This document shows, piece after piece, positions 6,044 to 64,000 of a stretch of 64,000 nucleotides of DNA. Position numbers and translations under genes: made by a program. The first letter of the stretch is position 1. Every line of letters begins with the position of its first letter. Source of the stretch: Paracoccus sp. DMF-8 (GTDB taxonomy: Bacteria; Pseudomonadota; Alphaproteobacteria; Rhodobacterales; Rhodobacteraceae); assembly GCF_029309835.1 (NCBI RefSeq), contig NZ_JARJHL010000010.1:186001-250000 (forward strand), read 5' to 3'. The notes under the pieces are model-generated. The model saw only the letters and a list, made by a program, of their open reading frames with translations. It did not search any database and had not been told where the DNA came from.

Positions 6044-6094
6044 TAGACTTCCGTCCTACTTGAGCGAAACCCCTGTGAGGGATAGGCAGGCTGC

Positions 6095-6820: not shown

Positions 6821-6960
6821 TGGATCTGGGCAAATATGCGGTGCCGGTGCTGACCGCCTACGGGCTGTCTGCGGTGCTGCTGGTGGGCGTCATCGTCCAG
6901 ACCGTGATCGCCAATGCCCGCGCCCGCCGCGCCCTGCAGGAGCATGAGAAACATGGCTAG
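6817..6960 (+). CDS. ccmD: Heme exporter protein CcmD
   Basis: A 47-residue single-span membrane protein with a short N-terminus (MMDLGKYAVPVLTAYG), one hydrophobic helix, and a basic cytoplasmic tail (ARARRALQEH). This is the standard CcmD layout; the protein stabilises CcmABC with CcmE. Two ATG codons in tandem at 6817 and 6820 overlap the ccmC stop, and either could be used. The stop TAG (6958-6960) lies inside the first codons of ccmG, whose ATG is at 6953. Confidence 0.9.
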   Translation: MMDLGKYAVPVLTAYGLSAVLLVGVIVQTVIANARARRALQEHEKHG

Positions 6961-7500
6961 GTTTTCCCCGATGATGGTGATCCCGCTGGCGGTTTTCGTG
7001 GGCTTCGCGGGCATCGCCGGTCTGGCCCTGATGCGCGAAAACCCGGGCGAGATGGACACGGCGCTGGCCCTGCGCGCCGCCCCGGCTATCGGCCAGACCA
7101 CCTTGCCGGGCAAGACCCAGCTGACCGATGAGATGCTGCGCCAGCCGGGCGTCAAGCTGGTCAATTTCTGGGCCAGCTGGTGCCCGCCCTGCCGCGCCGA
7201 ACATCCGACCCTGACTGAACTGTCCAAGCGTCTGCCCGTCTACGGCGTCGACCTGAAGGACCCCGAAGATGCCGCGCGAGGCCTTTCTGCGCGCAGGATG
7301 GCGACCCCTTTGCCGCCATCGCGACCGATCCGCGCGGCCGCACGGCGATTGACTGGGGCGTGACCGCGCCGCCGGAAACCTTCATTCTGGACGGGCAGGG
7401 GCGCATCCTCTACCGTTTTGCCGGTCCCCTGATCCGCGAGGATTACACCACGCGTTTCCTGCCCGAACTGGAAAAGGCCATCGCCGCAGAAGGTCAGTGA
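6953..7500 (+). CDS. ccmG: Thiol:disulfide interchange protein CcmG/DsbE, frameshifted
   Basis: CcmG is the membrane-anchored periplasmic thioredoxin that reduces apocytochrome c before heme attachment. The N-terminal signal anchor (MARFSPMMVIPLAVFVGFAG) is followed by the active site WASWCPPCRAEHP. After YGVDLKDPEDAA the frame is lost. EAFLRA appears in the second frame, and GDPFAAIATDPRGRTAIDWG with APPETFILDGQGRI in the third, running to TGA at 7498-7500. So two single-base shifts sit within 7265-7300. All parts of a normal 180-residue CcmG are present, which argues for sequence errors. The start ATG at 6953 overlaps the end of ccmD. Confidence 0.9.
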
Positions 7501-52727: not shown

Positions 52728-53052
52728 TTTCGACCTTGTAATCCGGGGTCGCCAGCGCCGATCTGCCGGTCGCGCGGGCAGGCGTGTGGCCCTGCGGCAC
52801 CCGGGAATCCCAGACCGCATTCATGTCGGCAAAGGCGCCCATGTCGGCCATCCAGATCTGAGCGGTCAGGATGCGGGTCTTGTCGGTGCCGCATTCGGCC
52901 AGCAGCCGGTCGATATTGGCAAGGATCGCGGTGGTCTGTTCGGTGACCGAGGCGCCCGGCTCTGCGACCTGACCGGCCAGATAGGCGATGCCGTTGTGGA
53001 CGACGGCCTGGCTCATGCGGGGGCCGACCTCGATACGCTTGATATCGGACAT
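52705..53052 (-). CDS. RidA/YjgF-family protein
   Basis: A 115-residue RidA-family protein that probably hydrolyses reactive enamine/imine intermediates. It starts MSDIKRIEVGPRMSQAVVHN at 53052 and has GIAYLAGQVAEPGASVTEQT, ILTAQIWMADMGAFADMNAV and the conserved arginine in GHTPARATGRSALATPDYKV. The start is preceded by AAAGGAATCCCC. It lies 11 bases downstream of the TSUP gene stop and is probably co-transcribed with it. Confidence 0.9.
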   Translation of the reverse strand: MSDIKRIEVGPRMSQAVVHNGIAYLAGQVAEPGASVTEQTTAILANIDRLLAECGTDKTRILTAQIWMADMGAFADMNAVWDSRVPQGHTPARATGRSALATPDYKVEIIVTAAL

Positions 53053-53063
53053 GGGGATTCCTT

Positions 53064-53813
53064 TCAGTTGATGATCCGCCAGAAGAATAGCGCCGTCATG
53101 CCAAAGCCGATGGCCGCGATCAATGCGCGCAGGACGGGAATCGGAATGCGTCGCGCGATTGGCGGCCCGACCAGCCCGCCTATGATGCTGCCTACAGACA
53201 TCACCAGACAGGGAAACCACGCGATCTGGCCGCCTACGGCAAAGATCGCCGTGGCGATCAGGGCCAGCGCAAAGCTGAGCCAGCATTTCAGCCCGTTCAT
53301 CTCATGCAGGTCGGTCATGCCCCACAGCGAAAACAGCGCCAGCAGCACGATCCCCAGACCGCCGTTGAAATAGCCGCCATAGATCGCCACCGGAATCATC
53401 GTCGCCGCGCCAAAGGGCACGACCAGATTGCGGTTGCGCGCGGCCCAACTGCGGATCGGGGCGCTGAAGACGAAAATCAGCGTTGCCGCCAGCAGCAGGA
53501 ACGGCACCAGCACGGCAAAGACCTTGTTCGACGACACCAGCAGCAGCAGCGACCCGATCACGCCGCCGATCAGCGTCAGCCATGTCAGGCGCAGCATCAG
53601 CCGGCGGTCGGTCTGGGCGATGTCGCTGCGAAAGCCGATGGTGCCCGACAGATAGCCGGGCAGGGCGGCCACCGTCGCCGTGGCATTGGCCATGACGATG
53701 GGCACCCCGGTCGCGACCAGCGCCGGAAAGGTGACAAAGGTGCCCCCGCCCGCGACGGCATTCAGAATGCCCGCGACAAGGCCCGCGACGAAAAGCAGGA
53801 TCAGATCTGACAT
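53064..53813 (-). CDS. TSUP-family (TauE/SafE) membrane transporter
   Basis: A 249-residue protein of the sulfite/sulfonate exporter TauE/SafE family with about eight membrane helices in two repeats. The first repeat begins LLFVAGLVAGILNAVAGGGT and the second has PVAIYGGYFNGGLGIVLLAL, both with the family's glycine-rich signature. The start ATG at 53813 gives MSDLILLFVAG; the ORF extends upstream for 61 codons without coding character. The substrate is likely a small anion but cannot be named from sequence. Confidence 0.88.
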   Translation of the reverse strand: MSDLILLFVAGLVAGILNAVAGGGTFVTFPALVATGVPIVMANATATVAALPGYLSGTIGFRSDIAQTDRRLMLRLTWLTLIGGVIGSLLLLVSSNKVFAVLVPFLLLAATLIFVFSAPIRSWAARNRNLVVPFGAATMIPVAIYGGYFNGGLGIVLLALFSLWGMTDLHEMNGLKCWLSFALALIATAIFAVGGQIAWFPCLVMSVGSIIGGLVGPPIARRIPIPVLRALIAAIGFGMTALFFWRIIN

Positions 53814-53908
53814 GTCAAAGGCGACCCGCGGGCTGCCCCTTTTTCTGTTGAAACCTTGGGCAGAATGGCAGCGCGGCCCGGCAAGGGCAAGGGCAAGCGC
53901 GGGATGCG

Positions 53909-54472
53909 TCAGCTTTGGGGCGCGGCAGGGGTGAACTCGATCAGGAACAGTCTTGCCCGGCCGGTGACCCCCGCCGGGCCATGCAGTTTCGCGCAATCGA
54001 GCGGCGCGACCGGGCTGTCGCCAATGCTGGCCGCGCCTTCGGCCATGAACAGAAAGGCGGTGCCCTGCGGCTCGATCAGGCGCGCGCCGTCAAGGTCGAT
54101 CCGCGTCACCTGCGCGTCGTAACGCCCGCGCCGCGTCATGATGTTCAGATCCGTGATGGCCGACCCGATCAGCCGGGCAAAGGTCGGCTGGTCGCCCGCA
54201 AAGCCAGAGGGCGCGCTGCCCTGGGTCAGCCGGGTTTCATCGCCGCCGACCGTCAGCAGGATGCCGTCCCCGGTCAGCACAGACAGGTTGCGGTCGATCC
54301 CGGCAAAACCCGAAAACGGCCCGTCTTCGGTCACGGATGCGGTGCTGATGCGCCAGTCGAAACTGTCGATCCCGGAGGTTTCGGGATGGATCGCGATTTC
54401 GATGGTTTCGCCCTTGCCGTTTTTCCACGGCATTCGCCGATGATCGGCTGCGCGCAGAATCGTAACGCTCAT
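53909..54472 (-). CDS. hutD: HutD family protein
   Basis: A 187-residue cupin-like protein of the HutD (Ves) family. It begins MSVTILRAADHRRMPWKNGK and continues with ETIEIAIHPE, FDWRISTASVTEDGPFSGFA and GIDRNLSVLTGDGILLTVGG, all typical. HutD is linked to histidine utilisation, where it may control urocanate levels. No other hut gene is seen nearby. Its start is only 28 bases from the tRNA-Gly fragment that marks the edge of the integrated element, so it is the last host gene in the window. Confidence 0.87.
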   Translation of the reverse strand: MSVTILRAADHRRMPWKNGKGETIEIAIHPETSGIDSFDWRISTASVTEDGPFSGFAGIDRNLSVLTGDGILLTVGGDETRLTQGSAPSGFAGDQPTFARLIGSAITDLNIMTRRGRYDAQVTRIDLDGARLIEPQGTAFLFMAEGAASIGDSPVAPLDCAKLHGPAGVTGRARLFLIEFTPAAPQS

Positions 54473-54499
54473 CTGGCAGGTCCCGCCCGAAAAGGATGT

Positions 54500-54548
54500 T
54501 GGAGCGGGTGAAGGGAATCGAACCCTCGTATTCAGCTTGGGAAGCTGC
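54500..54548 (-). other. tRNA-Gly (CCC) 3' half at element junction (att site)
   Basis: Read on the reverse strand, this is the 3' half of a tRNA-Gly: anticodon arm with loop TTCCCAA (anticodon CCC), T-arm GAGGGTTCGATTCCCT, acceptor strand CACCCGC, and an encoded CCA. The 5' half is missing: the sequence entering the anticodon arm is unlike a D-arm. An integrase gene begins 26 bases away. Integration into the 3' part of a tRNA gene explains this exactly. The left junction then keeps only the 3' half, and a complete tRNA-Gly(CCC) should exist at the other end, outside the window. Confidence 0.85.
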
Positions 54549-54573
54549 GGACACCACGCATAGGGGTTTGTGA

Positions 54574-55647
54574 TTAAGCACTTTTATTTCTCCTTCGGGA
54601 TTTACTTCGGGATTCGGCTGATTGCAAGACGCTGAAATCGTCCAGGGCGTCGGCAAGGTCGTTGTCCAGCACATGGGCATAGCGCGTGGTGGTATCGACG
54701 CTGGTGTGGCCTAACAGGCGGCTGACCAGCTTGAGGTTGCCTGTGCGGCGCAGCAGCCGGGTTGCAAATGTGTGACGCAGATCGTGGAATCGGAAATTCT
54801 CGATGTCTGCTGCATCAAGCGCGGCCCGGAAATCCTCCATGAGACCGCCGCCATTCGGCACGATCTTGCGGCGTGGGTTGCCCTTGCGGTTCTGGACTTC
54901 GAACGTGAAGACGAACCGGCGATGTTCAGGCAGTTCAGACTTCGGCAGGGCTGACAGCAGCGCGGAGATTTCGGGGCTGATCGGGAATTGCATAGACGTG
55001 CCGCCTTTCAGGCGGAAAGTCATTCTGCGGGTAGACTGATCGATATCGCTCCACCGCAGCTCGGTGATCGTGGACAGGCGCGCGCCGGTCATCAGTGCGA
55101 ATTTGACAAAGGCATGCAGATCGGGGCGCAGGTGTTCGAACAGGCGCTTTTGTTCGTCCTGTGACAGTTCGCGGATTCGTTCGACCGGTTCGGGCGTCTC
55201 GGCCGCCTTGAGGTCGATGTCTGGCATCTGCGCCTTGTGGACGCGGCCCATGTAGCGCAGCGCCCGGCCAAGCATTTGCAGATGACGGTTTACGGTTGCA
55301 TTGGATGCATGTGCGCGTCGTGTCGCAACAAATCGTGCCAGATCAGCGTTGGACAGGTCCGCCATTGATTTCCTTCCGTCCATCGTTTCGAGGATCATCG
55401 CCGCCTGGCTTTTCGCGGTCCTGGCGCTGCTTTGGTGCTGACAGACATCGGTCCAGTATGTTCCGAGGGCTTCGGCAAGGGTGAACCTGCCTGTGACGGA
55501 TGACGATGCTTTGGCAGCAACGCGAGCCTGCGCCTCTACCGCTTTCGCTTCTTCAAAGTCCGCTGTGCCGCAACTTCCGTGAAATCTACGACCCCGGATC
55601 TGGAAGTCGTAGTGCCAGTAGGACGAGTTTTTGGGACGGTATGGCAT
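54574..55647 (-). CDS. int: Tyrosine-type integrase of the integrated element
   Basis: A 357-residue phage-type tyrosine recombinase. An N-terminal arm-type binding region and a SAM-like core-binding domain (TLAEALGTYWTDVCQHQSSA) precede the catalytic domain. The catalytic residues are visible: Arg in MTGARLSTITELRW, His-x-x-Arg in FHDLRHTFATRLL, the second His in LLGHTSVDTTTRYAHV, with the Tyr in RYAH. It lies next to the tRNA-Gly junction and reads toward it. The start overlaps the excisionase gene by 112 bases, a compact arrangement that could couple their expression. Confidence 0.95.
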   Translation of the reverse strand: MPYRPKNSSYWHYDFQIRGRRFHGSCGTADFEEAKAVEAQARVAAKASSSVTGRFTLAEALGTYWTDVCQHQSSARTAKSQAAMILETMDGRKSMADLSNADLARFVATRRAHASNATVNRHLQMLGRALRYMGRVHKAQMPDIDLKAAETPEPVERIRELSQDEQKRLFEHLRPDLHAFVKFALMTGARLSTITELRWSDIDQSTRRMTFRLKGGTSMQFPISPEISALLSALPKSELPEHRRFVFTFEVQNRKGNPRRKIVPNGGGLMEDFRAALDAADIENFRFHDLRHTFATRLLRRTGNLKLVSRLLGHTSVDTTTRYAHVLDNDLADALDDFSVLQSAESRSKSRRRNKSA

Positions 55648-55820
55648 TGTATTGTCCGGTTGTTGATGAATGATGCCAGATCATCGCTTCTGAATCTGAT
55701 AGTTCCACCGGTCAGCATGACGTAGGCCAAACCTTTTGACCTGAGGCGGGTGAGGGTCTTGGTCGAAACCTGCAGCATGGCGGCCGCTTCGGTGGGTGTC
55801 AGCAGCTGCATTGTCGGCAT
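55536..55820 (-). CDS. Excisionase-like helix-turn-helix protein
   Basis: A 94-residue protein beginning MPTMQLLTPTEAAAMLQVST with a winged helix-turn-helix of the excisionase/MerR type: LTPTEAAAMLQVSTKTLTRL, then a wing (GGTIRFRSDDLASFI). The start at 55820 follows AAGGAG at good distance. A basic C-terminal tail (RTLKKRKR) overlaps the start of the integrase gene by 112 bases in another frame. Position, fold and size fit a recombination directionality factor. Confidence 0.8.
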   Translation of the reverse strand: MPTMQLLTPTEAAAMLQVSTKTLTRLRSKGLAYVMLTGGTIRFRSDDLASFINNRTIQCHTVPKTRPTGTTTSRSGVVDFTEVAAQRTLKKRKR

Positions 55821-56029
55821 CTGTCCAGCTCCTTTTGGCAAATCGTCATGTGGATGATCCGGTCGGGATCAGTGGTCAGCAGCTCGGCGCGGATCTGCAG
55901 CGCCTCGCGCCAGGTCAGGCGGCTGTGGATTTCGCGGCCGAGGAAATCGGTCCAGTCATCGGATCTGGCGAGGACCCAGACCGGGCCGGTCATAATCAGA
56001 TCGAGGACGCCGTGCGGTGCTTCGGTCAT
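55799..56029 (-). CDS. Small phage protein, 76 residues
   Basis: ORF starting MTEAPHGVLDLIMTGPVWVL, whose ATG overlaps the stop of the methyltransferase gene by four bases and whose end overlaps the excisionase start by 22 bases. It contains WTDFLGREIHSRLTWREALQ and a C-terminal pair of cysteines (RCRQCSC). I do not recognise the family. The tight packing on both sides supports translation as part of the leftward operon. Confidence 0.6.
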   Translation of the reverse strand: MTEAPHGVLDLIMTGPVWVLARSDDWTDFLGREIHSRLTWREALQIRAELLTTDPDRIIHMTICQKELDRCRQCSC

Positions 56030-58188
56030 GCCGTCACCCTTTCGCGCGCGGCGGCCAGATGCTGGCAATTCGCGCTGATGATGGCGGCGGCGATGGGTGG
56101 GCAAACGCTGTTGCCACAGCAGCTGACCTGCACGTCCTTGGCAAATCCCTGCCAGACCCATTCCCCGGCCTCATCCTGCTGCCAAACGCCCTCGATTACG
56201 TAATCGTTCGGGAAACCCTGGGCGCGGAACAGTTCGCGTGGGGTCAGCATCCGCATGCCGATGTCGATGACGACATAGGTCGCGCCGTCGATTTCCAGCG
56301 TGACGAACTCGCCCCCGGTCCATGCGCCATGATCGCGCAGGAACTCGGCCACCTGGCGCGCGCGGGCGTGATGCTCGGGTGCGAAGGGCGGCGCGGCCAG
56401 CTCGGCCTGCATGTGCGCCATGCGATCCTTGACCGTGACGGTGTGCAGCGGATCGTCCGTGCGCGCGCCGTCGCCGGTGCCGTAGTATTTGGCAAAAAAG
56501 GCTGCGACCGGGGTCTGGTGGCTGCCCGATCCGGCGATGGTGCTGATCGGGTCGCGCGGATCGTGGCCCGCGTGCGCGCTCATGCGGGGCCCGCCGTTCT
56601 GCTGGGCCAGAAATGCGGCGATGGGCGCGTGCTTCGCACCGCCGGCGACCACCGTGCCAAGCGGTGCCTGCACGTCCAGCGCGCGCGGGGCTTGGCCCTG
56701 ACGCTCACCATAGCCGGTCTGCACCATGGTAGCCGCGATCAAGCTGTTCTGATCCTTTTTCGAGGCGCAAATCGTATGGTGCGGATCCTCGATCGAGCGA
56801 TTGCCGCCGCCCTGCTGTGCATAGGTCAGCACGGGCGAAATAACCGCGTGCTGGATGCCGCCGACCGTGACGGTGCCGAGCGGATCGGTCAGGGGGTATT
56901 CGCGCCGCCCGCCACTGTCGCCGTGCGCGATGCTGGCCAGATAGGGCGCCAGCAGCCCAAGGGGTGCCGCGCCGCCCGGTTTCTTGATCCAGCTATTCGC
57001 GGTGATGGTCGCCAGTGGATCGCGCAGATCCTGCCCGGTCGCGCCGCTGTTGAAGCGCTGCAGGCTGGCCGCGATCAGCGCGCTATGCCCGCCACCGGCC
57101 AGCACCGTGGGATGTGGCGTGCTGATCGCGCTGTCGCGCCGCGCCGTGCCCTTGAGGCTCATCAGGTGGGCCGTGGTGACACAGGCATCGGCCTTGGCCG
57201 TCACGGTCGCGAAAGGCTCATCCCCGCCGCGCGGGCGACTCTGCCCGGCCCTGCCGCCGCAACCGACGATGGTCGGCACCACAACAGCCTTTTCGCCCCG
57301 GTGCGCGCCGGTGATGGTCTTAATGGGCGCGGTGACATCCTCGACCCGCCCGCCGTGGGTCAGGTTGACCAGAAACGGCCGGTCCGCCTCGATGACATAG
57401 CGGCCCATGCCGCGCGCCACGCGGGCCATGGTGTTCTTGGCCAGCGGTCGCACCGCGCGCAGGCCGTGCTTGGCCATGATTTCGGGGCCGGTGTCGAAGA
57501 TCGAGGGGCAGGGCTGCGACCAGTCGATGCAGGTATGCGCGCCGACCCAAGGGAGCAGCTTGCCCTTGCGCACTGCGGGCGATTTCGGGTCGCCATGGGT
57601 CGGCTTAGGCCAGGTGATGGGGCGCCCGTCGCGGCGCGCTACCAGAAACCACCGCTTGCGGATCGTGGGCGCGCCATAGTCGCAGGCGCGCAGTTCGCGC
57701 CACTGGACTTTGTATCCGGCCTTTTTCAGGCGGGACAACCAGAGTTCAAACGTGACGCCAGCAAATTCCTTGATGGGGCGGCCGTCATCATCAATAGGCC
57801 CCCATGTCACAAATTCCTCGACGTTTTCCATAGCGATCACGTCGGGCTTGGCTTCCTCGGCCCATTTCACCACGATCCACGCCAGATCCCGGATATTGCG
57901 GTCGCGCGGGGCCCCGCCCTTGGCTTTCGAAAAATGCTTGCAATCCGGGCTGGCCCAGAGCAGGCCGACATGGCGCCCCTGCGTAACGGTCAGCGGGTCA
58001 ACGTCCCAAATATTGCTGTCCAAGTGCAGCGTCTCGGGGTGGTTGGCCGCGTGCAGGGCCAGCGCCTTGGCGCTGTGGTTGATGGCCACATCGGGCGAGC
58101 GGCCCAGGGCCATCTCGATCCCGGTCGACGCGCCGCCGCCGCCCGCGAAGCTGTCGATGATCATGGGGAGGTGGGGTTGGAAGGTCAT
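56026..58188 (-). CDS. DNA (cytosine-5)-methyltransferase with repeated variable region
   Basis: A 720-residue C5-methyltransferase. Motif I is IDSFAGGGGAS (11-21), motif IV is WASPDCKHFSKAKGG (78-92) with the catalytic Cys83 in an unusual SPDC instead of PPC, motif VI is MENVEEF (120-126), and motif VIII is QWRELRACDYGAPTIRKRW (162-180). Motifs IX and X are RMLTPRELFRAQGFP (646-660) and CCGNSVCPPIAAAI (690-703). Between VIII and IX, about 300 residues hold nine short motifs of the type DPLxTVT at 287, 324, 357, 390, 435, 468, 508, 546 and 579. The gene probably modifies phage DNA against host restriction; its target is unknown. Confidence 0.9.
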   Translation of the reverse strand: MTFQPHLPMIIDSFAGGGGASTGIEMALGRSPDVAINHSAKALALHAANHPETLHLDSNIWDVDPLTVTQGRHVGLLWASPDCKHFSKAKGGAPRDRNIRDLAWIVVKWAEEAKPDVIAMENVEEFVTWGPIDDDGRPIKEFAGVTFELWLSRLKKAGYKVQWRELRACDYGAPTIRKRWFLVARRDGRPITWPKPTHGDPKSPAVRKGKLLPWVGAHTCIDWSQPCPSIFDTGPEIMAKHGLRAVRPLAKNTMARVARGMGRYVIEADRPFLVNLTHGGRVEDVTAPIKTITGAHRGEKAVVVPTIVGCGGRAGQSRPRGGDEPFATVTAKADACVTTAHLMSLKGTARRDSAISTPHPTVLAGGGHSALIAASLQRFNSGATGQDLRDPLATITANSWIKKPGGAAPLGLLAPYLASIAHGDSGGRREYPLTDPLGTVTVGGIQHAVISPVLTYAQQGGGNRSIEDPHHTICASKKDQNSLIAATMVQTGYGERQGQAPRALDVQAPLGTVVAGGAKHAPIAAFLAQQNGGPRMSAHAGHDPRDPISTIAGSGSHQTPVAAFFAKYYGTGDGARTDDPLHTVTVKDRMAHMQAELAAPPFAPEHHARARQVAEFLRDHGAWTGGEFVTLEIDGATYVVIDIGMRMLTPRELFRAQGFPNDYVIEGVWQQDEAGEWVWQGFAKDVQVSCCGNSVCPPIAAAIISANCQHLAAARERVTA
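56431..57330 (-). repeat. Nine degenerate repeats within the methyltransferase gene
   Basis: The repeats are seen at protein level: APIKTITG, EPFATVTA, TPHPTVLA, DPLATITA, DPLGTVTV, DPHHTICA, APLGTVVA, DPISTIAG and DPLHTVTV, spaced 33-45 residues apart. Between many of them lies a second shared phrase (HSALIAASL, HAVISPVL, NSLIAATM, HAPIAAFL, QTPVAAFF) and then an asparagine/glycine-rich turn. They make up most of the presumed target-recognition region. Confidence 0.85.
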
Positions 58189-58436
58189 TGGTCTGCGCCC
58201 TTTATCGCGCGCGGCGCGGTCACATCTCTCGCGGCGGCCTCGATTGTCTTCACCGCCTGCATGTAGAGCCGGACGCCGTTGAACATCTGCTTGGCCAGTG
58301 CAGCACGCGCGAGCGCCTCGGTCGGGCTGATCTTTCCGTCGCGCAGCTGCTGGAGGTCGGCGGCAAGGCCGAGGATGATATCGCGCAGCCCAAGGCTGTC
58401 CGCGACCGGTGTGCTGACATAGTCCCGCTCAGCCAT
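58185..58436 (-). CDS. Small phage protein, 83 residues
   Basis: From the ATG at 58436 it reads MAERDYVSTPVADSLGLRDI and is almost wholly helical: LAADLQQLRDGKISPTEALA, then LAKQMFNGVRLYMQAVKTIE. This helical layout resembles small phage proteins that bind DNA or a partner protein, but I cannot name a family. It overlaps the methyltransferase start by four bases (ATGA) and the preceding gene by eight bases. Confidence 0.65.
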   Translation of the reverse strand: MAERDYVSTPVADSLGLRDIILGLAADLQQLRDGKISPTEALARAALAKQMFNGVRLYMQAVKTIEAAARDVTAPRAIKGADQ

Positions 58437-58677
58437 GGCGAGCCTCATAGATTTTCCGGCTGGCTTCTTCGTCCAGCGCCTCGGCCAGCGCCGCAATCTG
58501 CTTGGCAAGACGCATGTCGGGCTTGCGGGTGATCGGCCCCAGCCTCCACCCGAATTGCTCGCACCTCCAACAGACCGGTGGATAGTCCATATGCGACGGG
58601 TCTTGCCATTGCAGCGGGCGCACCTTGCCGCAGATGGCGCAGTCGAAGGGATCGGGATGGGGAGGATAGATCGGCAT
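58429..58677 (-). CDS. Small zinc-ribbon-like phage protein
   Basis: An 82-residue protein beginning MPIYPPHPDPFDCAICGKVR. Two pairs of cysteines, CAIC near residue 13 and CWRC near residue 36, give a CxxC-(20)-CxxC pattern suited to one zinc ion. A helical tail follows (AKQIAALAEALDEEASRKIY). It may bind nucleic acid or a protein partner. Its stop overlaps the next gene and its ATG is directly at the stop of the preceding one. Confidence 0.65.
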   Translation of the reverse strand: MPIYPPHPDPFDCAICGKVRPLQWQDPSHMDYPPVCWRCEQFGWRLGPITRKPDMRLAKQIAALAEALDEEASRKIYEARHG

Positions 58678-58850
58678 CAGGCAGGTTCTCCCTGAGCGTC
58701 ATCCCAACCCAGATGCCGATCGATCTGGGTTTTCGCTTCGTCTATCGTCTCTGCGGCGCCGTGCGCGTCTGTTTCATCGTGCGCCCAGATGTAGAGAGCG
58801 CCCGGCACTTCGGGGCGCAGGATGGTGATGCCGCGATAGCTGCTGCTCAT
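58677..58850 (-). CDS. Small phage protein, 57 residues
   Basis: From the ATG at 58850 the product is MSSSYRGITILRPEVPGALY followed by IWAHDETDAHGAAETIDEAK, which suggests two strands and two helices. No family recognised. Its stop shares one base with the start of the zinc-ribbon-like gene, and it lies about 60 bases after the DUF2303 gene, within the same leftward operon. Confidence 0.55.
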   Translation of the reverse strand: MSSSYRGITILRPEVPGALYIWAHDETDAHGAAETIDEAKTQIDRHLGWDDAQGEPA

Positions 58851-58908
58851 GCTGGATACCTCTTGATCGTTCGGGATGGCAGCGCCGCAGCGCTGCGCAC
58901 CGGAAGGA

Positions 58909-59895
58909 TCAGGCCGCGCCAATTTCGGGGATGCCCATCATGAGCGGGACATTGGTCGCCTCCTTGGCAGTGGCCATGGCTTCGCGCGCGGCATCGCGCA
59001 GTGCGGCGTCGGGGTTGTAGATCGAGACGATGAATTTCACGTCCGAACCGGCTTTGCGGTAGCGGAAGCGGACAGCCAACCGATACAGGGCGCCTTCCTC
59101 GAATACCGGGATCGCGATCATGAACAGGTTTGGCAGTGTCAGGGGCGTCCCGTCAGGGCTGCGGTGTTCGGTCAGGAACTGCACCTGCGCTTCGCCCGTG
59201 TCTCGGTTGGTCTTGACCTCGATATGGCCGACCTCGTGGATCTTCAGTTCGCGCGACAGCAGGTTGATCGCGGAATACTGGCCGAACCGGCCTTGGATCT
59301 TGGCCGCGACCTCTATCATGCGACGTTCCCAAGCCTCGATGTCGTCATCTTTGACGGTGCTGCCGATCAGAGCGGGTGTGGGGTCGAGGAAGTCACCGGC
59401 CTGTGCCTCGATGAATTCGCCAAACACGTCTTTGTCCAGGGCCTTGCCGTCGATGGCGGTCCAGCGCTTCCATTCTTCGGACACCGGGAAGTCGTAGACC
59501 GCACGGTGGCGACCGTAATTTGCCAGCGGATCGGCGTCGGTGGGCGAATTGATGGGTGCGCCCTGGCCATGGTAATCAATCACGGTGGTCAGTCGGGGCG
59601 CGGGATGGATCTGGCCGAAGATCACCGTGTCGGCGCCCTTAAAGCGGTTGGTCCACTCGATCAGGCTGTCGAGGTCTGCCAGATGGGCCTTGCCGGTGCG
59701 CTGAATAGGTTTCAGCGACTGTGCCGCCGCCAGAACCTTATCGGTCAGGTCATGCAGCTGCATGTCCTGCGGCGCGCTGACGATGTAGGGGGCAAGGGGC
59801 TGTTCGCTGGTGGCGTGGCTGACGATCTCGTAAGAACCGACGCGGCGCAGTTCGTCGATAATCGTTTCAGCGATGTTCTTGGGGGTCTCGGTCAT
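58909..59895 (-). CDS. DUF2303 family phage protein (YfdQ-like)
   Basis: A 328-residue protein of the DUF2303 family, found in prophages and related to E. coli YfdQ. Recognisable are TVIDYHGQGAPINSPTDADP, HRAVYDFPVSEEWKRWTAID, VFGEFIEAQAGDFLDPTP and the beta-rich C-terminal HIEVKTNRDTGEAQVQFLTE. The function is not known; the gene is usually found in phage early regions. It follows the 123-residue ORF after 11 bases. Confidence 0.87.
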   Translation of the reverse strand: MTETPKNIAETIIDELRRVGSYEIVSHATSEQPLAPYIVSAPQDMQLHDLTDKVLAAAQSLKPIQRTGKAHLADLDSLIEWTNRFKGADTVIFGQIHPAPRLTTVIDYHGQGAPINSPTDADPLANYGRHRAVYDFPVSEEWKRWTAIDGKALDKDVFGEFIEAQAGDFLDPTPALIGSTVKDDDIEAWERRMIEVAAKIQGRFGQYSAINLLSRELKIHEVGHIEVKTNRDTGEAQVQFLTEHRSPDGTPLTLPNLFMIAIPVFEEGALYRLAVRFRYRKAGSDVKFIVSIYNPDAALRDAAREAMATAKEATNVPLMMGIPEIGAA

Positions 59896-59906
59896 GGTGC
59901 TGGTCC

Positions 59907-60278
59907 TTATTCAGCGGCGCGCAATTCGCGGCGGCCGTTCCCGGCATCGCGGATTTCCATTCGGGATTGCGCGGGGTTGTGGGTGGTGATTGCGCCGTCG
60001 CCGGTCATCCATGCGACCGCTTTGCGCTTGGGTGGTTTCGGCCCGACGATCTTGTCGTCGATGACCATTTCGGTGGCGCCGAAAGGATCGACCTTCACAT
60101 CGATTGTCAGTGTGATCTTGCCCTTCGCAGTAGTGGAATACTGCTGAGCGAAGCTGCGCATTTCGACGTTGTTCGCCTCGATCCTGGACAGCAGGTCAGG
60201 CAGATAATCACCAGCATCGGCCAGCGACAGCATCTGATCGAGACTGCGAAGTTCGGGCGGTTTTCGGGGTTCGTCCAC
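59907..60278 (-). CDS. Hypothetical phage protein, 123 residues
   Basis: No ATG fits the start; GTG at 60278 is preceded by GAAAGG and gives MDEPRKPPELRSLDQMLSLA. The central strand-rich segment TAKGKITLTIDVKVDPFGAT followed by MVIDDKIVGPKPPKRKAVAW looks like one beta sheet. It is next to DUF2303 and is often seen together with it in prophages; the two may act as a pair. Family not recognised with certainty. Confidence 0.65.
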   Translation of the reverse strand: MDEPRKPPELRSLDQMLSLADAGDYLPDLLSRIEANNVEMRSFAQQYSTTAKGKITLTIDVKVDPFGATEMVIDDKIVGPKPPKRKAVAWMTGDGAITTHNPAQSRMEIRDAGNGRRELRAAE

Positions 60279-60394
60279 TTGAGTGCCTTTCAAGGTTAGA
60301 GATAACTTTGGAAAAGGCCCCCGGTCCGAGCAGTGACCGGGGGCAGTTATGGCCGGGCGCGCGACAAGCAGAGGGGGCGCGCAGGGCCGAATGG

Positions 60395-61270
60395 TCACTT
60401 CACGTTCAGGAACGGGACCGTCGATTGCGGTGGCATGCTGGTCGGCAAAACGCCGTCCCATTTCTCGGCCTTCGTCAGTTCGATCAGCGCCGGATTGTTG
60501 GCGAGTGCTGTGCTGCGCAGGCGGATCGCCTCTGCCTCGGCTTCACCTTTGACGCGGATAGAGTGGGCCTGCGCGTCTGCGTTGGCTTTGATTTCGTACG
60601 CCCGCGCATCTGCCTGATGCTGTGCGGCCTGCCGATCCTGATCGGCCTGCCGAACCTCCTGCATCTTCCTGGCAACCTCGACCTCGGCGCCCATGCGCTC
60701 GTTGATCTTGCGGCTGTATTCTTCGGAATAGGCAATCGAGGTCAGCTCGACGGACAGGATTTCAATGGGGGCGCCGTCTGGCAGCTTTTTCAGAGCATTA
60801 GAAACGTCGGCTGAAAGCGCGGACCGTTCGCGAACAGAACGCTCGGCCGAATACTGGCCGAAAACCTTTTCCAGCTCGGCATTGACGCGCCGCCCGACAA
60901 ACCGATCAACAACCGCATCCGGGGTCCTGTATTCACGATATACGTCTTCTACCCGATCTGTCGGGATGCGGTAGCTGATGCTGATCCCCTCGATTGTCGC
61001 GATTTGCTGGTCGGTCGTGTATGCTTCCAAGCCCTCATAGGACTTGATCTGATTGCGCACCGGAATGTGGTAGACGCTGGTGACAAAGGGCGCCTTGAAG
61101 TGGATGCCCGGCTCGGATGTACCTTTGACAACCCCGAGCTTGACGACGACCCCACGGTCCCCTTCGTCCACGGTGTAATATGACCCGAACAGCCCGCCGA
61201 TGCCGATGACCGCGCAGATTACTGCCGTGGCACCTACGATTTGTGGAAATCCTACCATCTGATACCTCAT
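60395..61270 (-). CDS. SPFH/prohibitin-family membrane protein of the element
   Basis: A 291-residue protein with one N-terminal membrane helix (IVGATAVICAVIGIGGLFGS), an SPFH/band 7 domain (VDEGDRGVVVKLGVVKGTSE, then GIHFKAPFVTSVYHIPVRNQ and SISYRIPTDRVEDVYREYRT), and a coiled coil rich in Glu and Ala (VARKMQEVRQADQDRQAAQH). This is the layout of HflC and prohibitins, which form large rings around the FtsH protease. Phage copies are known but not well studied. It follows a 32-residue membrane ORF by three bases. Confidence 0.9.
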   Translation of the reverse strand: MRYQMVGFPQIVGATAVICAVIGIGGLFGSYYTVDEGDRGVVVKLGVVKGTSEPGIHFKAPFVTSVYHIPVRNQIKSYEGLEAYTTDQQIATIEGISISYRIPTDRVEDVYREYRTPDAVVDRFVGRRVNAELEKVFGQYSAERSVRERSALSADVSNALKKLPDGAPIEILSVELTSIAYSEEYSRKINERMGAEVEVARKMQEVRQADQDRQAAQHQADARAYEIKANADAQAHSIRVKGEAEAEAIRLRSTALANNPALIELTKAEKWDGVLPTSMPPQSTVPFLNVK

Positions 61271-61273
61271 GAC

Positions 61274-61372
61274 TTATTCGTCAGAATTTGAGCGTTCGAC
61301 GATCCACAGAACCCCGCAGACCATCAGGACAATGACGACGACGCCGCCAATGATTGTGAGAAAGGGTGCCAT
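61274..61372 (-). CDS. Very small membrane protein, 32 residues
   Basis: ATG at 61372 is preceded by a perfect AGGAGG at eight bases and opens MAPFLTIIGGVVVVIVLMVC followed by GVLWIVERSNSDE and TAA. It is essentially one membrane helix with a short polar tail. It ends three bases before the SPFH gene, so it is likely a membrane partner of that protein or a regulator of it. Confidence 0.7.
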   Translation of the reverse strand: MAPFLTIIGGVVVIVLMVCGVLWIVERSNSDE

Positions 61373-61408
61373 CAGGCCTCCTGTTGTTTCGGTTGGACGC
61401 GCAATGCA

Positions 61409-61528
61409 TCAGACGATCCAGTCGCGCGGGTCGCGGTTGTCGAAAAACCGATCGAGTTCGGTGCGCGTCAGCACCACCGTCCGGTTGGTGCGCCAGTTGG
61501 TCAGGATGTGCATGCCGTTGACGATCAT
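61409..61528 (-). CDS. Very small protein, 39 residues
   Basis: ATG at 61528 shares its A with the stop of the preceding gene and reads MIVNGMHILTNWRTNRTVVL followed by TRTELDRFFDNRDPRDWIV. The composition is that of a folded small protein. The overlap supports translation. Family not recognised. Confidence 0.5.
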   Translation of the reverse strand: MIVNGMHILTNWRTNRTVVLTRTELDRFFDNRDPRDWIV

Positions 61529-61734
61529 CACAGGCCCTCGGCGATCTGCTGCCAGCCGGTTTCGCGGGACTGGGCGGCGGTGGGGGCGATGAAATCCGCG
61601 ACGGCCTGCCAGTCGATGCTGGCGGCGATCAGGATCAGACCCATGGTTGCGACCACCACCAGCATCGCGGTGGCAATGACGCCGATCAGGGGCAGGCAGG
61701 GGCCAACATCTGGATCGGGGTGGCGGGTCTCCAT
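61528..61734 (-). CDS. Small membrane protein, 68 residues
   Basis: The protein begins METRHPDPDVGPCLPLIGVI and has one long hydrophobic region (IATAMLVVVATMGLILIAAS), with a soluble tail containing DWQAVADFIAPTAAQSRETG. It lies two bases after the previous gene and overlaps the next by one base. A membrane role in the leftward operon is likely; phage superinfection-exclusion proteins can look like this, but no family match is seen. Confidence 0.55.
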   Translation of the reverse strand: METRHPDPDVGPCLPLIGVIATAMLVVVATMGLILIAASIDWQAVADFIAPTAAQSRETGWQQIAEGL

Positions 61735-61736
61735 GG

Positions 61737-61988
61737 TCAGGCCCCCCGCGACTTGTCGATGGCGGAATGGGCCAGATCCACGGCATGAGGATCGCCCGCA
61801 ACAACGGCCTTCAGCGCGGCCAGCATATCCGGGGCGGCGGCGATCAGGCGGGCGTCGGCTTCACCCCGGAACACATGGCAGATCGTGCTGCCTTCCTGGC
61901 GGCTTTCGGTCGAAGAGACGAACCAAGCAGCGGCGTCTTCGTCATATTCTGCCCACCAAGGGGCACGGCTGTGAGGGATTGGGGACAT
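61737..61988 (-). CDS. Small phage protein, 83 residues, first gene of the leftward operon
   Basis: From the ATG at 61988, with GGAG at seven bases, it reads MSPIPHSRAPWWAEYDEDAA and includes VFRGEADARLIAAAPDMLAA. The segment EADARLIAAAPDMLAALKAV is widely found in small phage proteins of otherwise unknown function. The gene lies directly downstream of two operator-like palindromes and is the first one read from the leftward promoter. Confidence 0.65.
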   Translation of the reverse strand: MSPIPHSRAPWWAEYDEDAAAWFVSSTESRQEGSTICHVFRGEADARLIAAAPDMLAALKAVVAGDPHAVDLAHSAIDKSRGA

Positions 61989-62017
61989 GGGTCGCTCCAT
62001 CGGGTTGCTGGGGCTAT

Positions 62018-62069
62018 GTTTACTATATGTAAACTTTACGGGTCAACCGAAAAGTTACTGTGTGTAAAC
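62018..62069 (-). promoter_or_regulatory. Leftward phage operator/promoter region with two palindromes
   Basis: A perfect palindrome GTTTAC-TATAT-GTAAAC is at 62018-62034. A second, less exact site, AGTTAC-TGTGT-GTAAAC, is at 62053-62069. Between them, on the reverse strand, is TTGACC (62041-62046), a good -35-like hexamer for the leftward operon. A repressor bound at the two sites would cover the promoter. The same palindrome occurs twice in the cI/cro intergenic region near 63.75 kb. Confidence 0.75.
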
Positions 62070-62110
62070 TTCCGATAGCTGAACCGATTCGCCCGTGCTA
62101 AAGTCCGCCT

Positions 62111-62157
62111 GCCAGCGCCGGGCAGCGGCGCATGAAAAAGCCCGCCGTGGGGCGGGC
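62111..62157 (-). terminator. Duplicated 47-base unit with leftward terminator, copy 1
   Basis: A stem GCCCGCC/GGCGGGC with a four-base loop (62140-62157) is followed, on the reverse strand, by TTTTT. This is a rho-independent terminator for leftward transcription, for example from the gene at 62278-62496. The whole 47-base unit is repeated at 62577-62623 with one mismatch. Directly after each copy, on the forward strand, a small ORF of the same family starts. Confidence 0.8.
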
Positions 62158-62169
62158 TGAGGGGGTGCG

Positions 62170-62376
62170 ATGGAGTTGTTACCGCGCGAGGAGTGGTGCG
62201 TCAGCCTTCAGGGCGGTTGTCTTTTGCTTGGTGCCTGGCAAGATTACGGGTTTCTTCACTGGGTCAAGTTCGTGCCTTCAGAGCCGATGGAGGATTATCC
62301 CGGTTGGGACGATCTTAAAGGTGAATTCGTCAATGTAGTTGACGTTCTCACCTGTGGGCAGGGACGCCCGCTTTAG
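62170..62376 (+). CDS. Small phage protein, 68 residues, paralogue 1
   Basis: Starts MELLPREEWCVSLQGGCLLL after GAGGGGG. Its first 30 residues match the ORF at 62635 (both have M-x-LLP-x-x-x-W-x-x-S, then G-x-x-LL-x-GAW-x-D-x-G and HW). The last 30 residues differ and lie on DNA that also encodes the reverse-strand gene 62278-62496, so this copy may be a fusion or truncation with a replaced end. Family not recognised. Confidence 0.5.
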   Translation: MELLPREEWCVSLQGGCLLLGAWQDYGFLHWVKFVPSEPMEDYPGWDDLKGEFVNVVDVLTCGQGRPL

Positions 62377-62496
62377 GCCGGGAATCCAGTCTTCGCCTTG
62401 CATATGGCGGCTGAGAGTGAACTTCTGGCGGACCTCGACCTTGTATTCATTGCCGCTGTCGTCACGGCACAGGATGGTTTCGATAAGCTTTTCCAT
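62278..62496 (-). CDS. Small conserved hypothetical protein, 72 residues
   Basis: A reverse ORF starting MEKLIETILCRDDSGNEYKV, with DWIPGLKRASLPTGENVNYI and DEFTFKIVPTGIILHR. Short proteins with this layout (acidic N-terminus with a Cys, the phrase WIPGLK, a final F-x-I-x-x-TG) are common in bacteria and their mobile elements; the function is unknown. AAAGGGAAC precedes the ATG. The terminator at 62135-62157 lies about 120 bases downstream. It overlaps the forward ORF at 62170-62376 by 99 bases. Confidence 0.7.
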   Translation of the reverse strand: MEKLIETILCRDDSGNEYKVEVRQKFTLSRHMQGEDWIPGLKRASLPTGENVNYIDEFTFKIVPTGIILHRL

Positions 62497-62542
62497 TCAG
62501 TTCCCTTTCATCTGTTGGTTGTGGTGACCTGATGATGGGGTT

Positions 62543-62571
62543 GCGGCGGGACTGCTGTCCAGTCCCGCCGC
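62543..62571. promoter_or_regulatory. Twelve-base-pair hairpin between small phage genes
   Basis: GCGGCGGGACTG and its exact complement CAGTCCCGCCGC are separated by five bases. There is no T-run on either side, so it is not a simple terminator. It lies in the leader of the reverse gene at 62278-62496 and just before the second copy of the 47-base unit. Confidence 0.5.
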
Positions 62572-62576
62572 ACAAA

Positions 62577-62623
62577 GCCAGCGCCGGGCAGCGGTGCATG
62601 AAAAAGCCCGCCGTGGGGCGGGC
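62577..62623 (-). terminator. Duplicated 47-base unit with leftward terminator, copy 2
   Basis: Same unit as at 62111-62157 with one change. The stem GCCCGCC/GGCGGGC (62606-62623) is followed by TTTTT on the reverse strand and would end leftward transcription from the gene at 62837-63085. The forward-strand side supplies the leader of the ORF at 62635. Confidence 0.8.
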
Positions 62624-62634
62624 AAGGAGAGAAG

Positions 62635-62856
62635 ATGAAACTGCTTCCGCAAGACCAGTGGGAACTATCGATTGAGGGCGACGCCCTGTTGATCGGTGCC
62701 TGGGAAGATAACGGTGTGCGGCATTGGGAACGGGTAGCGCGCACACGCGCCGGCGGCAATATCACCCCAGGAGACAAAGGTTACACGATCCATATAGGGC
62801 TGGGTAGCGACGGAACCCTAAAGGCTTCCGTGGTCGCTAATGATGATGATTCCTAG
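62635..62856 (+). CDS. Small phage protein, 73 residues, paralogue 2
   Basis: Starts MKLLPQDQWELSIEGDALLI after AAGGAGA, continues GAWEDNGVRHWERVARTRAG and ends GLGSDGTLKASVVANDDDS. It is related to the ORF at 62170 over the first 30 residues and appears to be the complete form. A predicted beta-rich fold with exposed acidic residues and an acidic tail would fit a DNA-mimic or inhibitor, but that is speculation. It overlaps the convergent gene at 62837 by 20 bases. Confidence 0.6.
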   Translation: MKLLPQDQWELSIEGDALLIGAWEDNGVRHWERVARTRAGGNITPGDKGYTIHIGLGSDGTLKASVVANDDDS

Positions 62857-63085
62857 ACCGGCGTATCATCTCTTGACCTTCGGATATCCGCTCGATCAAT
62901 GTATCGGGCCACCCCGGCGCACCTATCGTCCCCAGCGTTGCCGTCGGGTCGAACGAAAATGTTGACGGTGATAGCTCGATAAGCATCCCAAGGAAGAGAG
63001 CCAGGGTTGCGTCGGCTTGCCGGGCGTTCTCGGTCAACTGCGCCAACTGCTCTTCTAGGGCAATAATTCTATCTTTGTCAGTCAT
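62837..63085 (-). CDS. Small coiled-coil phage protein, 82 residues
   Basis: Begins MTDKDRIIALEEQLAQLTEN, a heptad-type helix, and ends with a basic-His tail (RRSRNHHH). The middle, TLALFLGMLIELSPSTFSFD, is hydrophobic but probably not a membrane span. The ATG is preceded by GAAAGG at suitable spacing. Family not recognised. A small upstream ORF ends three bases before it. Confidence 0.6.
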   Translation of the reverse strand: MTDKDRIIALEEQLAQLTENARQADATLALFLGMLIELSPSTFSFDPTATLGTIGAPGWPDTLIERISEGQEMIRRSRNHHH

Positions 63086-63088
63086 TTC

Positions 63089-63253
63089 TCAACCTTTCGT
63101 TGGTTCGACCGGAGCCTCTACCATCTGGCCCGGAAGGAACCCGCGCAGGGCGGTCAGATCGTCGGCATCAGGGTTCTGGGGCATTGGCGATAATTCCGTC
63201 TTGACTGCCTGAAAGGACAGGTCGCGAATCGCGTCATGGTTGAGACAGGTCAA
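63089..63253 (-). CDS. Possible very small ORF with TTG start, 54 residues
   Basis: A reverse frame LTCLNHDAIRDLSFQAVKTE, then LSPMPQNPDADDLTALRGFL and PGQMVEAPVEPTKG to a TGA at 63089-63091. Only TTG at 63253 or an internal ATG at 63202 could start it. The three-base spacing to the following gene is its best support. Confidence 0.35.
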   Translation of the reverse strand: MTCLNHDAIRDLSFQAVKTELSPMPQNPDADDLTALRGFLPGQMVEAPVEPTKG

Positions 63254-63292
63254 TTTTTGTTCTGCTAACGTTCTCTAGGTCTGTTCGGGTTG

Positions 63293-63475
63293 ATGGCGAG
63301 GGAGGATGTCTTGCGGTTAGATGTGTTCGATTACGTGATTATCTTGATGGGGCTCGATCCTGTCAAAAAAGACGAATTGATCCGCGATGTTAACCGTCTT
63401 CGTTTGGAAGCATCTTTCGAGCAATCCGGGCAATCGCGTCCTGATCATCTTCGGAAAGCTGTTGAAAAACAGTAA
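63293..63475 (+). CDS. Doubtful forward ORF overlapping the cI-like gene
   Basis: ATG at 63293 opens MAREDVLRLDVFDYVIILMG followed by LDPVKKDELIRDVNRLRLEA. This first part is protein-like, but the end is antisense to the repressor gene at 63390-63695 and loses that character. No strong ribosome binding site is seen. It may be the remnant of a gene cut by the repressor gene or a chance frame. Confidence 0.3.
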   Translation: MAREDVLRLDVFDYVIILMGLDPVKKDELIRDVNRLRLEASFEQSGQSRPDHLRKAVEKQ

Positions 63476-63695
63476 GGTGATCGATGAGCTTCTGCGCCCC
63501 ATCAGAGCTAGGCTCAATCAATTCTGTGACGTCGATGCCGAACGCCGCAGCTATCGACCGCAAGGCTTCGGCGCTAGGATCACGGCGCCCGTTCTCCAGC
63601 AGTGACACGTATCCCTTTGATAGACCTGCCAGTTGACCCAAGTGAAGTTGGGACCACCCCCGTGCGTCTCGATGTTCTTTTATGCGAAATTTCAT
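63390..63695 (-). CDS. CI-like phage repressor, XRE family
   Basis: A 101-residue protein from the ATG at 63695, MKFRIKEHRDARGWSQLHLG. The helix-turn-helix is WSQLHLGQLAGLSKGYVSLL followed by ENGRRDPSAEALRSIAAAFG, the classic XRE/Cro-CI pattern. The C-terminal 35 residues (LTVFQQLSEDDQDAIARIAR) probably dimerise. There is no S24 peptidase domain, so release would not be by RecA-stimulated self-cleavage. An upstream ATG at 63752 would translate through an operator and is less likely. It is divergent from the cro-like gene, with both operator copies in between. Confidence 0.85.
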   Translation of the reverse strand: MKFRIKEHRDARGWSQLHLGQLAGLSKGYVSLLENGRRDPSAEALRSIAAAFGIDVTELIEPSSDGAQKLIDHLTVFQQLSEDDQDAIARIARKMLPNEDG

Positions 63696-63733
63696 GGTGT
63701 TTACAAAGATGCCATTCGCGCGATCGGCTGGAA

Positions 63734-63785
63734 ACTTTCTGTGTGTAAACATTTCTGCTTGATCTTGCGTTTACTGTGTGTAAAC
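63734..63785. promoter_or_regulatory. cI/cro intergenic operators
   Basis: A perfect palindrome GTTTAC-TGTGT-GTAAAC is at 63769-63785, eight bases before the cro-like start codon. A partial site, ACTTTC-TGTGT-GTAAAC, is at 63734-63750. A lone half site GTTTAC is at 63699-63704, at the cI start. The spacer TGTGT is shared with one leftward site at 62 kb. These are the likely binding sites for the CI-like and Cro-like proteins. Confidence 0.8.
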
Positions 63786-63793
63786 CATCGCGC

Positions 63794-64000
63794 ATGGAAA
63801 TCACCGATCATATCGCCGCCAGCGGGCGTTCGCGCACTGAAATTTGTCGCGAAGTAGGTATCTCTCCGGGGATGCTGAGCCTGATCGAAAGCGGGCAGCG
63901 GCGCATTGGCATAGCTCGCGCTGCTGCCTTCGCTGCGGCGATTGGGGTTCAGGTTCGGGACGTTCGCCCCGATCTGGCGTCTGCGCTCGGTGCTTCCATC
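63794..64000 (+). CDS. Cro-like regulator, partial at window end
   Basis: The ATG at 63794 opens a frame that runs off the window after 69 residues: MEITDHIAASGRSRTEICRE, then VGISPGMLSLIESGQRRIGI and ARAAAFAAAIGVQVRDVRPD. The helix-turn-helix SRTEICREVGISPGMLSLIE is clear. No ribosome binding site is visible in the eight bases after the operator, so translation may be leaderless. It is divergent from the CI-like gene, as Cro is in lambdoid phages, and should lead the rightward operon beyond the window. Confidence 0.8.
   Translation, partial: MEITDHIAASGRSRTEICREVGISPGMLSLIESGQRRIGIARAAAFAAAIGVQVRDVRPDLASALGASI

Follow-up and report, generated by a model that had tools for sequence, protein, structure and literature searches.

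The gene at positions 56026–58188 (minus strand) of the analysed window, a 64,000-nucleotide stretch of Paracoccus sp. DMF-8 (contig NZ_JARJHL010000010.1, positions 186,001–250,000), encodes a C5-cytosine DNA methyltransferase of 720 amino acids. This protein is likely to be a prophage-borne, probably orphan multispecific enzyme, in which nine target-recognition domains (TRDs) sum several short targets and shield the phage genome. In the proposed mechanism, the two ends of the protein would form one catalytic core that carries nine short TRDs of ~33–45 residues each, every one built on a P-x-x-T-[V/I] turn with specificity residues on either flank. The TRDs would dock singly in the cleft beside the active site, each steering the core to the short target that it reads. 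The enzyme would then methylate the sum of different short sites, and the phage genome would be masked from many restriction enzymes. The repertoire would shift by recombination, with whole units swapped, added or dropped from a pool common to phages of many bacteria.

The array is located between motifs VIII and IX of the methyltransferase. Nine matches to the pattern P-x-x-T-[VIL] are present over the full length of the protein; their prolines are residues 288, 325, 358, 391, 436, 469, 509, 547 and 580, which gives spacings of 37, 33, 33, 45, 33, 40, 38 and 33 residues. When the 340-residue region 286–625 was shuffled with its composition retained, none of 10,000 shuffles reached nine motifs (mean of 0.34, maximum of 4). 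This result bears out an earlier note on this DNA, which had placed nine motifs at a spacing of 33–45 residues in this region. The motif was described there as DPLxTVT-like: the core P-x-x-T-[V/I] is indeed common to all nine units, whereas the strict form DPLxT[VI]T is found in three (units 4, 5 and 9). As for the hydrophobic phrase said to follow each motif, most units show it clearly, whereas in units 2, 4 and 9 it is weak. Pairwise identity among the nine units is just 20–44%, and a tandem-repeat search at the DNA level returned two short rows only and no unit array.

The boundaries of the units are approximate and were placed by hand, and the type numbers are taken from an average-linkage typing of 145 family proteins. 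All units lie on the minus strand. Unit 1, delimited by its motif and by family comparison, comprises residues 272–308 (57265–57375, type 8). It is followed by unit 2 (residues 309–341, 57166–57264, type 13), whose counterpart is absent from the same place in L029 and other relatives (L numbers denote the loci of relatives), and by unit 3 (residues 342–374, 57067–57165, type 6), which occupies different positions in relatives. Units 4 (residues 375–419, 56932–57066, type 2), 5 (residues 420–452, 56833–56931, type 11) and 6 (residues 453–492, 56713–56832, type 3) form the middle of the array. Unit 7 (residues 493–530, 56599–56712) is of type 0, which is present in 79 of the 145 proteins. Unit 8 (residues 531–563, 56500–56598, type 9) precedes unit 9 (residues 564–596, 56401–56499), whose type 7 is the last unit in all 44 proteins that contain it.

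Because the motif of the units agrees with the TL core seen in known recognition domains, the array is most readily interpreted as a tandem string of TRDs. The published consensus for C5 recognition domains includes a TL motif with the core P-x-P-T-[ILV]-[TASV] and DNA-contacting trimers 10 residues before and 3 after it, at −13 to −11 (N-TL) and +5 to +7 (C-TL) relative to the T (PMC2413257). The P-x-x-T-[VI] of the units has the same spacing as this core, and in 554 units of a first set the P (−3) is kept in 99% and the T (0) in 98%. Among 18 unit types, which share an identity of 0.57–0.82 within and 0.05–0.25 between types, the columns that distinguish the types are strongest at −17 to −8 and +4 to +9 around the T, with columns −7 to −2 and 0 to +1 mostly forming a common frame. 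The published N-TL and C-TL contact positions lie within the type-specific columns. Purifying selection acts on the shared units with about the same strength as on the core: in eight relatives, hand-picked among the close ones, the ratio of nonsynonymous to synonymous substitution rates (dN/dS) is 0.09–0.23 for the shared units and 0.10–0.18 for the core. In the short relatives L097 and L099 (331 and 326 amino acids as trimmed, with SPEC replacing SPDC in the active site), one such unit is found in the recognition place. As in the multispecific tandem-TRD class, the stretch between motifs VIII and IX of the 720-residue protein holds several TRD-like modules that carry a TL motif; these are the nine units, each of which would be a working TRD. 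A profile of the units was also compared with 16 parsed ordinary C5 enzymes, a sample with some duplicates and visible parsing errors; nine were matched, four of them in the variable region versus 2.5 expected, and L097 and L099 are among three that were not parsed. Assignment of targets through the published N-TL and C-TL trimers, compared by eye, gave no trustworthy match.

Comparison across the family strongly supports natural cassette behaviour, in which whole units are gained, lost, replaced and reordered. The 145 distinct proteins, this one included, carry 2–10 units each, 944 in total; these fall into 116 types and make up 115 architectures. The set excludes genome-derived proteins of 250 bits or less, L090, eight of 13 reference proteins and exact duplicates; it keeps near copies (for example, Paracoccus phage vB_PyeM_Pyei1 as both L004 and L082) and truncated proteins, and small unit counts may be partial. 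Typing relied on an iterated unit profile and average linkage, and single linkage, which merged unlike types, was dropped. Evolution by gain and loss of units, as suggested in the earlier note, is strongly supported by these data, exchange of units is seen as well, and the repeat number, for which a comparison among related enzymes had been proposed, does vary. In an alignment of proteins whose N-terminal cores are 80–90% identical to that of the 720-residue protein, whole units are gained, lost or swapped for unlike units. For instance, the SLKGTARRDS...PHPTVLAGGGHSA unit is third here, lies between units 4 and 6 in L036, L013 and L019, and occupies the unit 6 place in L007. Core identity does not hold the arrays together, since the mean Jaccard index of shared unit types is just 0.48 for pairs with 75–90% identical cores and 0.66 for those with 90–100%. 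Each of the nine types of this protein is found in 25–79 of the 145 proteins and in 5–23 of the 51 proteins that remain after thinning under 80% core identity (142 of the 145 proteins have a core usable for thinning). In the full set, such a type has as many as 17 different neighbours on its left and 16 on its right. Of 273 pairs of types that co-occur in at least two architectures, 35 are seen in both orders (16 of 132 in the thinned set). The similarity between units can far exceed that between their cores, as in Pseudomonas phage F116 and L201 (core 43%, unit 91%), which may reflect transfer or strong conservation. The exchange of modules as wholes, a mark of the multispecific tandem-TRD class, is seen here in nature. 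In Pyei1 (L082, coding sequence 5001–7022), the array starts with shortened units of types 6 and 13, which merge at a common GG stretch, as if an in-frame deletion had fused them; this hybrid hints at how arrays may shrink.

The arrays are also non-redundant. No type occurs twice in any array of the 145 proteins, whereas a shuffle of the inner units among architectures, which does not fully respect ancestry, gives a mean of 53 duplicates and a minimum of 32 in 2,000 trials. Because the set holds near copies, the counts were repeated after thinning. Duplicates are still absent under 90% core identity (79 proteins; shuffle mean of 26.7, minimum of 10) and under 80% (51 proteins; shuffle mean of 13.9, minimum of 6). 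A measure that does not depend on typing agrees: identity is above 55% in only nine of 2,809 within-array pairs versus 4.1% of 19,856 random between-protein pairs, and under 80% core identity the corresponding counts are 0 of 885 within arrays and 1,547 of 48,885 between proteins. The best match of every unit is found in another protein (944 of 944 units, and 496 of 496 and 316 of 316 in the sets thinned under 90% and 80%). The arrays look unlike products of recent tandem duplication and appear to be assembled from a shared pool. Such non-redundancy is what would be expected if each unit has its own job.

What the units might recognize is suggested by relatives that have been expressed. PamI recognizes CCATGG. 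For two prophage enzymes of P. aminophilus, partial protection of CCNGG, CCWGG, AGCT, CCGG and GCN7GC is reported, while R.PamI is not blocked (PMC3925955). These enzymes are connected with the 720-residue protein as members of the same family through Pyei1_p05 (L082), which is 75.8% identical to this protein (tblastn), lies close to a phage integrase and has an array of eight units; it is described as ~69% identical to both tested enzymes, and vB_PyeM_Pyei1 itself is reported as an active phage (PMC6536676). The P. aminophilus genes JCM7686_0772 and JCM7686_2655 were not identified in the sequence collections used. Formation of 5-methylcytosine (m5C) and a broad, incomplete protection are thus published for relatives. 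In print, the breadth of the relatives is put down to relaxed specificity (PMC3925955, PMC5537653, PMC6536676), ARM81mr_p29 of Aeromonas, which likewise has SPDC, is listed among m5C enzymes of this kind (PMC5537653), and the term TRD is absent from the main text of PMC6536676 and PMC5537653. The same breadth is read here as a sum of modules.

If the specificity were relaxed in the strict sense, a single module, such as the fixed last unit, would read a very short site (CC, for example), with the remaining units acting as a spacer or clamping the DNA non-specifically. This explanation, the low-specificity pattern of the earlier note, ranks as the main rival but is judged unlikely. It would agree with the published description of the relatives, with the poor fold prediction of the array and with the position of the last unit: the commonest last-unit types (2, 7, 20 and 27 in the numbering of a separate typing) are only ever last, and, because this unit does not move, not all units are equivalent. 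However, AGCT, which contains no CC, is protected and cleavage by R.PamI is not prevented, a selectivity that makes a sum of discrete targets fit better than one loose target. Moreover, a spacer or clamp needs neither ~100 distinct types with conserved type-specific residues nor non-redundant arrays and purifying selection. A mixed array, in which a few recognition domains are active and the others, decayed or silent, are kept as a store for recombination, is given a somewhat lower probability still. The merely partial protection by the relatives, the length of the array and the shortened hybrid of Pyei1 could all be accommodated in this way, but decayed units would not be expected to show purifying selection near the level of the core, nor the P and T to be kept almost throughout. 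For the extended target that the earlier note had also considered, several units would have to bind neighbouring stretches of DNA simultaneously. Just the arrangement of the units in a row speaks for this, and it is held to be very improbable, since the units are reordered, gained and lost, with counts of 2–10 that include some truncated proteins, and the relatives protect several unrelated short sites. Several targets, as summed by the TRDs of the favoured explanation, would be the best-supported function, on the basis of a TL-like motif in each unit, the non-redundant arrays and the broad published protection by relatives.

A number of observations nevertheless weigh against a string of TRDs with one target each, in addition to the immobile last unit. 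The overlap with the contact positions is weak support, because columns beyond them (−21 to −18, −1 and +10) are type-specific too. The aromatic and basic residues that the published consensus has upstream, [YFW]x[RK], are for the most part not seen in the units of this protein. The unit profile has no significant match to solved TRDs in the PDB (two unrelated hits only, with E values of 0.63 and 0.89) or to the control enzymes of Bacillus phages, L081 and L118. In the same family, phi2LM21_p23 is reported to be inactive in E. coli (PMC5537653). Under the strictest thinning, to less than 70% core identity (27 proteins), there are again no duplicates, but the shuffle mean falls to 6.2 with a minimum of 0, and the best match lies elsewhere for 173 of 175 units. 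Recombinational loss of duplicated units, with no selection for distinct targets, could yield non-redundancy too. Finally, the AlphaFold model built on a 56-sequence alignment has no confident fold for residues 276–598, with block values of the predicted local distance difference test (pLDDT) of 24–41 over residues 281–600. The shuffled units probably spoil the alignment behind this part of the model. For L186, a relative with three units and a 33-sequence alignment, block pLDDT values reach 55–77 at residues 281–320, which hold the first unit, and 32–45 at residues 321–370. A Foldseek search with the L186 model retrieves C5 methyltransferases, and its alignment to M.HhaI (1fjx) covers 296 of 327 residues versus 259 for the 720-residue protein. 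One unit seated in the recognition place would agree with this alignment, of which only the ranges were available; it is not relied on here.

A wider proposal can be formulated, to which we give about an even chance. A pool of ~100 or more interchangeable one-target modules, spread over phages of many bacterial phyla and combined in non-redundant arrays of up to ten, would constitute a readable code of the restriction sites that each phage hides, and each module would be usable alone. If breadth is the sum of modules, the targets of relaxed-specificity phage methylases would become predictable from sequence. C5 recognition modules would then be available from nature as a library for use as tools and for reading the history of restriction between phages and hosts, and the principle of the Bacillus phage enzymes would be a widespread, combinatorial strategy. 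The question bears on how one core reaches many targets and how new specificities arise.

In temperate phages of Bacillus, several recognition domains in one polypeptide are reported to protect against many restriction systems (PMC12707154, PMC5923457, PMC8936443). Like the enzymes of SPR, phi3T, SPbeta and H2, the proposed enzyme would combine a single C5 core, tandem recognition domains and an orphan phage setting. The SPbeta-type control in L081, whose stretch is cut off at the end, has two TL-like motifs ~47 residues apart, counted by eye. The Bacillus multispecific enzymes have a few recognition domains, whereas nine units are present here and up to ten in the family; this protein also differs in having SPDC in motif IV and in the lack of a detectable sequence match at the level of the unit, and natural shuffling of cassettes across distant bacteria is documented for the present family. 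In the C5 methylase of L118 (Bacillus phage phi18-2, coding sequence 1186–2439), an extra TL-like stretch, WDEPALTITA, lies before motif I, as if it belonged to an N-terminal recognition domain. For comparison, M.(phi)BssHII is a C5 enzyme that reportedly has recognition domains at separated locations; by contrast, the units of the 720-residue protein form one contiguous array. M.HaeIII and M.HhaI share the core fold but total just 324–327 amino acids, with one recognition domain each. That domain contains the TL motif (PMC2413257). Tandem recognition domains in multispecific phage methylases are already known, and broad m5C methylation by the present family has been published; what is added here is the long array, the shuffling of cassettes and the non-redundancy of this family, an unusually clear evolutionary signature. 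No account of these three features in this family was found in searches of the open-access literature of PubMed Central, and accounts may exist elsewhere.

The catalytic core of the 720-residue protein looks intact, as C83, the ENV of motif VI (residues 121–123) and R177/R179, the R-x-R of motif VIII, are invariant in the 56-sequence alignment. The open reading frame has an ATG start, and its translation matches Pfam DNA_methylase (PF00145; E value of 2.4e-28; 100 bits versus a curated cut-off of 22), which places it in this class, and phrog_116 (3.9e-97). Its NCBIfam dcm score of 81.5 is under the cut-off of 100.65, and PADLOC returns generic methylase matches, mainly over the core. The N-terminal core with motifs I–VIII (residues 1–270, 57379–58188, minus strand) is delimited by the Pfam stretch 10–198, the AlphaFold model and the fold match. 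The C-terminal catalytic part with motifs IX and X (residues 597–720, 56029–56400, minus strand) is delimited by AlphaFold and by invariant residues, which are R646, L648, P650, E652, G692 and N693, the GN being motif X. The structure prediction proposed in the earlier note is confident for both parts, unlike the array: block pLDDT values are 82–96 in the N-terminal core, except for residues 1–10 (74), 81–100 (49–51) and 121–140 (72–74), and 83–96 over residues 601–710. The whole model matches M.HhaI and M.HaeIII with Z scores of ~24–25. The catalytic motif SPDC (residues 80–83, 57940–57951, minus strand), in which C83 is the expected nucleophile, had been noted as non-standard. It is present as described but is no oddity of this protein. 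Since it occurs in 73 of 77 family proteins (this protein and the viral loci; three of 79 viral loci were removed as exact duplicates) and S80, P81, D82 and C83 are all invariant among the 56 aligned sequences, SPDC is evidently the usual active-site form of the phrog_116-type family; the remaining four of the 77 had no match to the search pattern. With its phrog_116 match and SPDC in motif IV, the protein belongs with the SPDC-type phage C5 methyltransferases. A long open reading frame on the plus strand (56017–58266) overlaps the gene and is presumably a by-product of the high GC content.

The methyltransferase gene resides in a prophage. A tyrosine integrase gene (54574–55647, minus strand; phrog_1, 1.1e-57) and an excisionase-like helix-turn-helix gene (55536–55841, minus strand; phrog_66, 7.2e-9) adjoin it, a repressor-like regulator gene (63390–63752, minus strand; phrog_8, 7.1e-15) lies further away, and genes for the small and large terminase subunits, the portal, a head protease, a minor tail protein and a tape-measure protein lie beyond the window on the same contig. 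A PHROGs scan of seven neighbours, two of which had no match at all, and of prophage genes named no restriction endonuclease; this covers part of the open reading frames, and PHROGs is no library of restriction enzymes. The methylase is probably an orphan that has no restriction partner. An Rfam search of 53000–64000 gave no match, and the one transfer RNA gene in the window is distant from the integrase. In the early region of the prophage, a gene at 60395–61270 (minus strand), annotated as a lipoprotein, matches phrog_200 and resembles what we take to be an SPFH/prohibitin-type protein. The host genome (G000) has three further places that match the C5 methylase family (C5:42352, C17:411727 and C17:444648).

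Relatives of the 720-residue protein are widespread. With tblastn, matches were obtained in 409 phage records, of which 211 have one place that spans 80% or more of the protein, and in 412 plasmid records, 119 of them at 80% coverage; ordinary C5 enzymes are among the weaker matches. In named genomes and metagenome-assembled genomes, a scan located 73 loci, ranging from Paracoccus to Pseudomonas, Burkholderia, Paenibacillus, Thalassoglobus and others, and the genome-contig matches of highest identity are in Paracoccus. Of 148 near genomes, 30 were matched, the genome of the window included and several solely through the general methylase core. Five family loci are found in the single genome of Pseudooceanicola marinus LMG 23705 (L145, L162, L165, L182 and L200), of which L200 and some others look partial. 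The open frames of L028 and L154 are ~1100 residues in length, with a long stretch ahead of the methylase core that may be a fusion or simply open frame. A gene annotated as phosphoadenosine phosphosulfate reductase adjoins the methylase in L121 (Escherichia phage Eeyore) and underlies the match in records of Rhizobium phage RR1-A.

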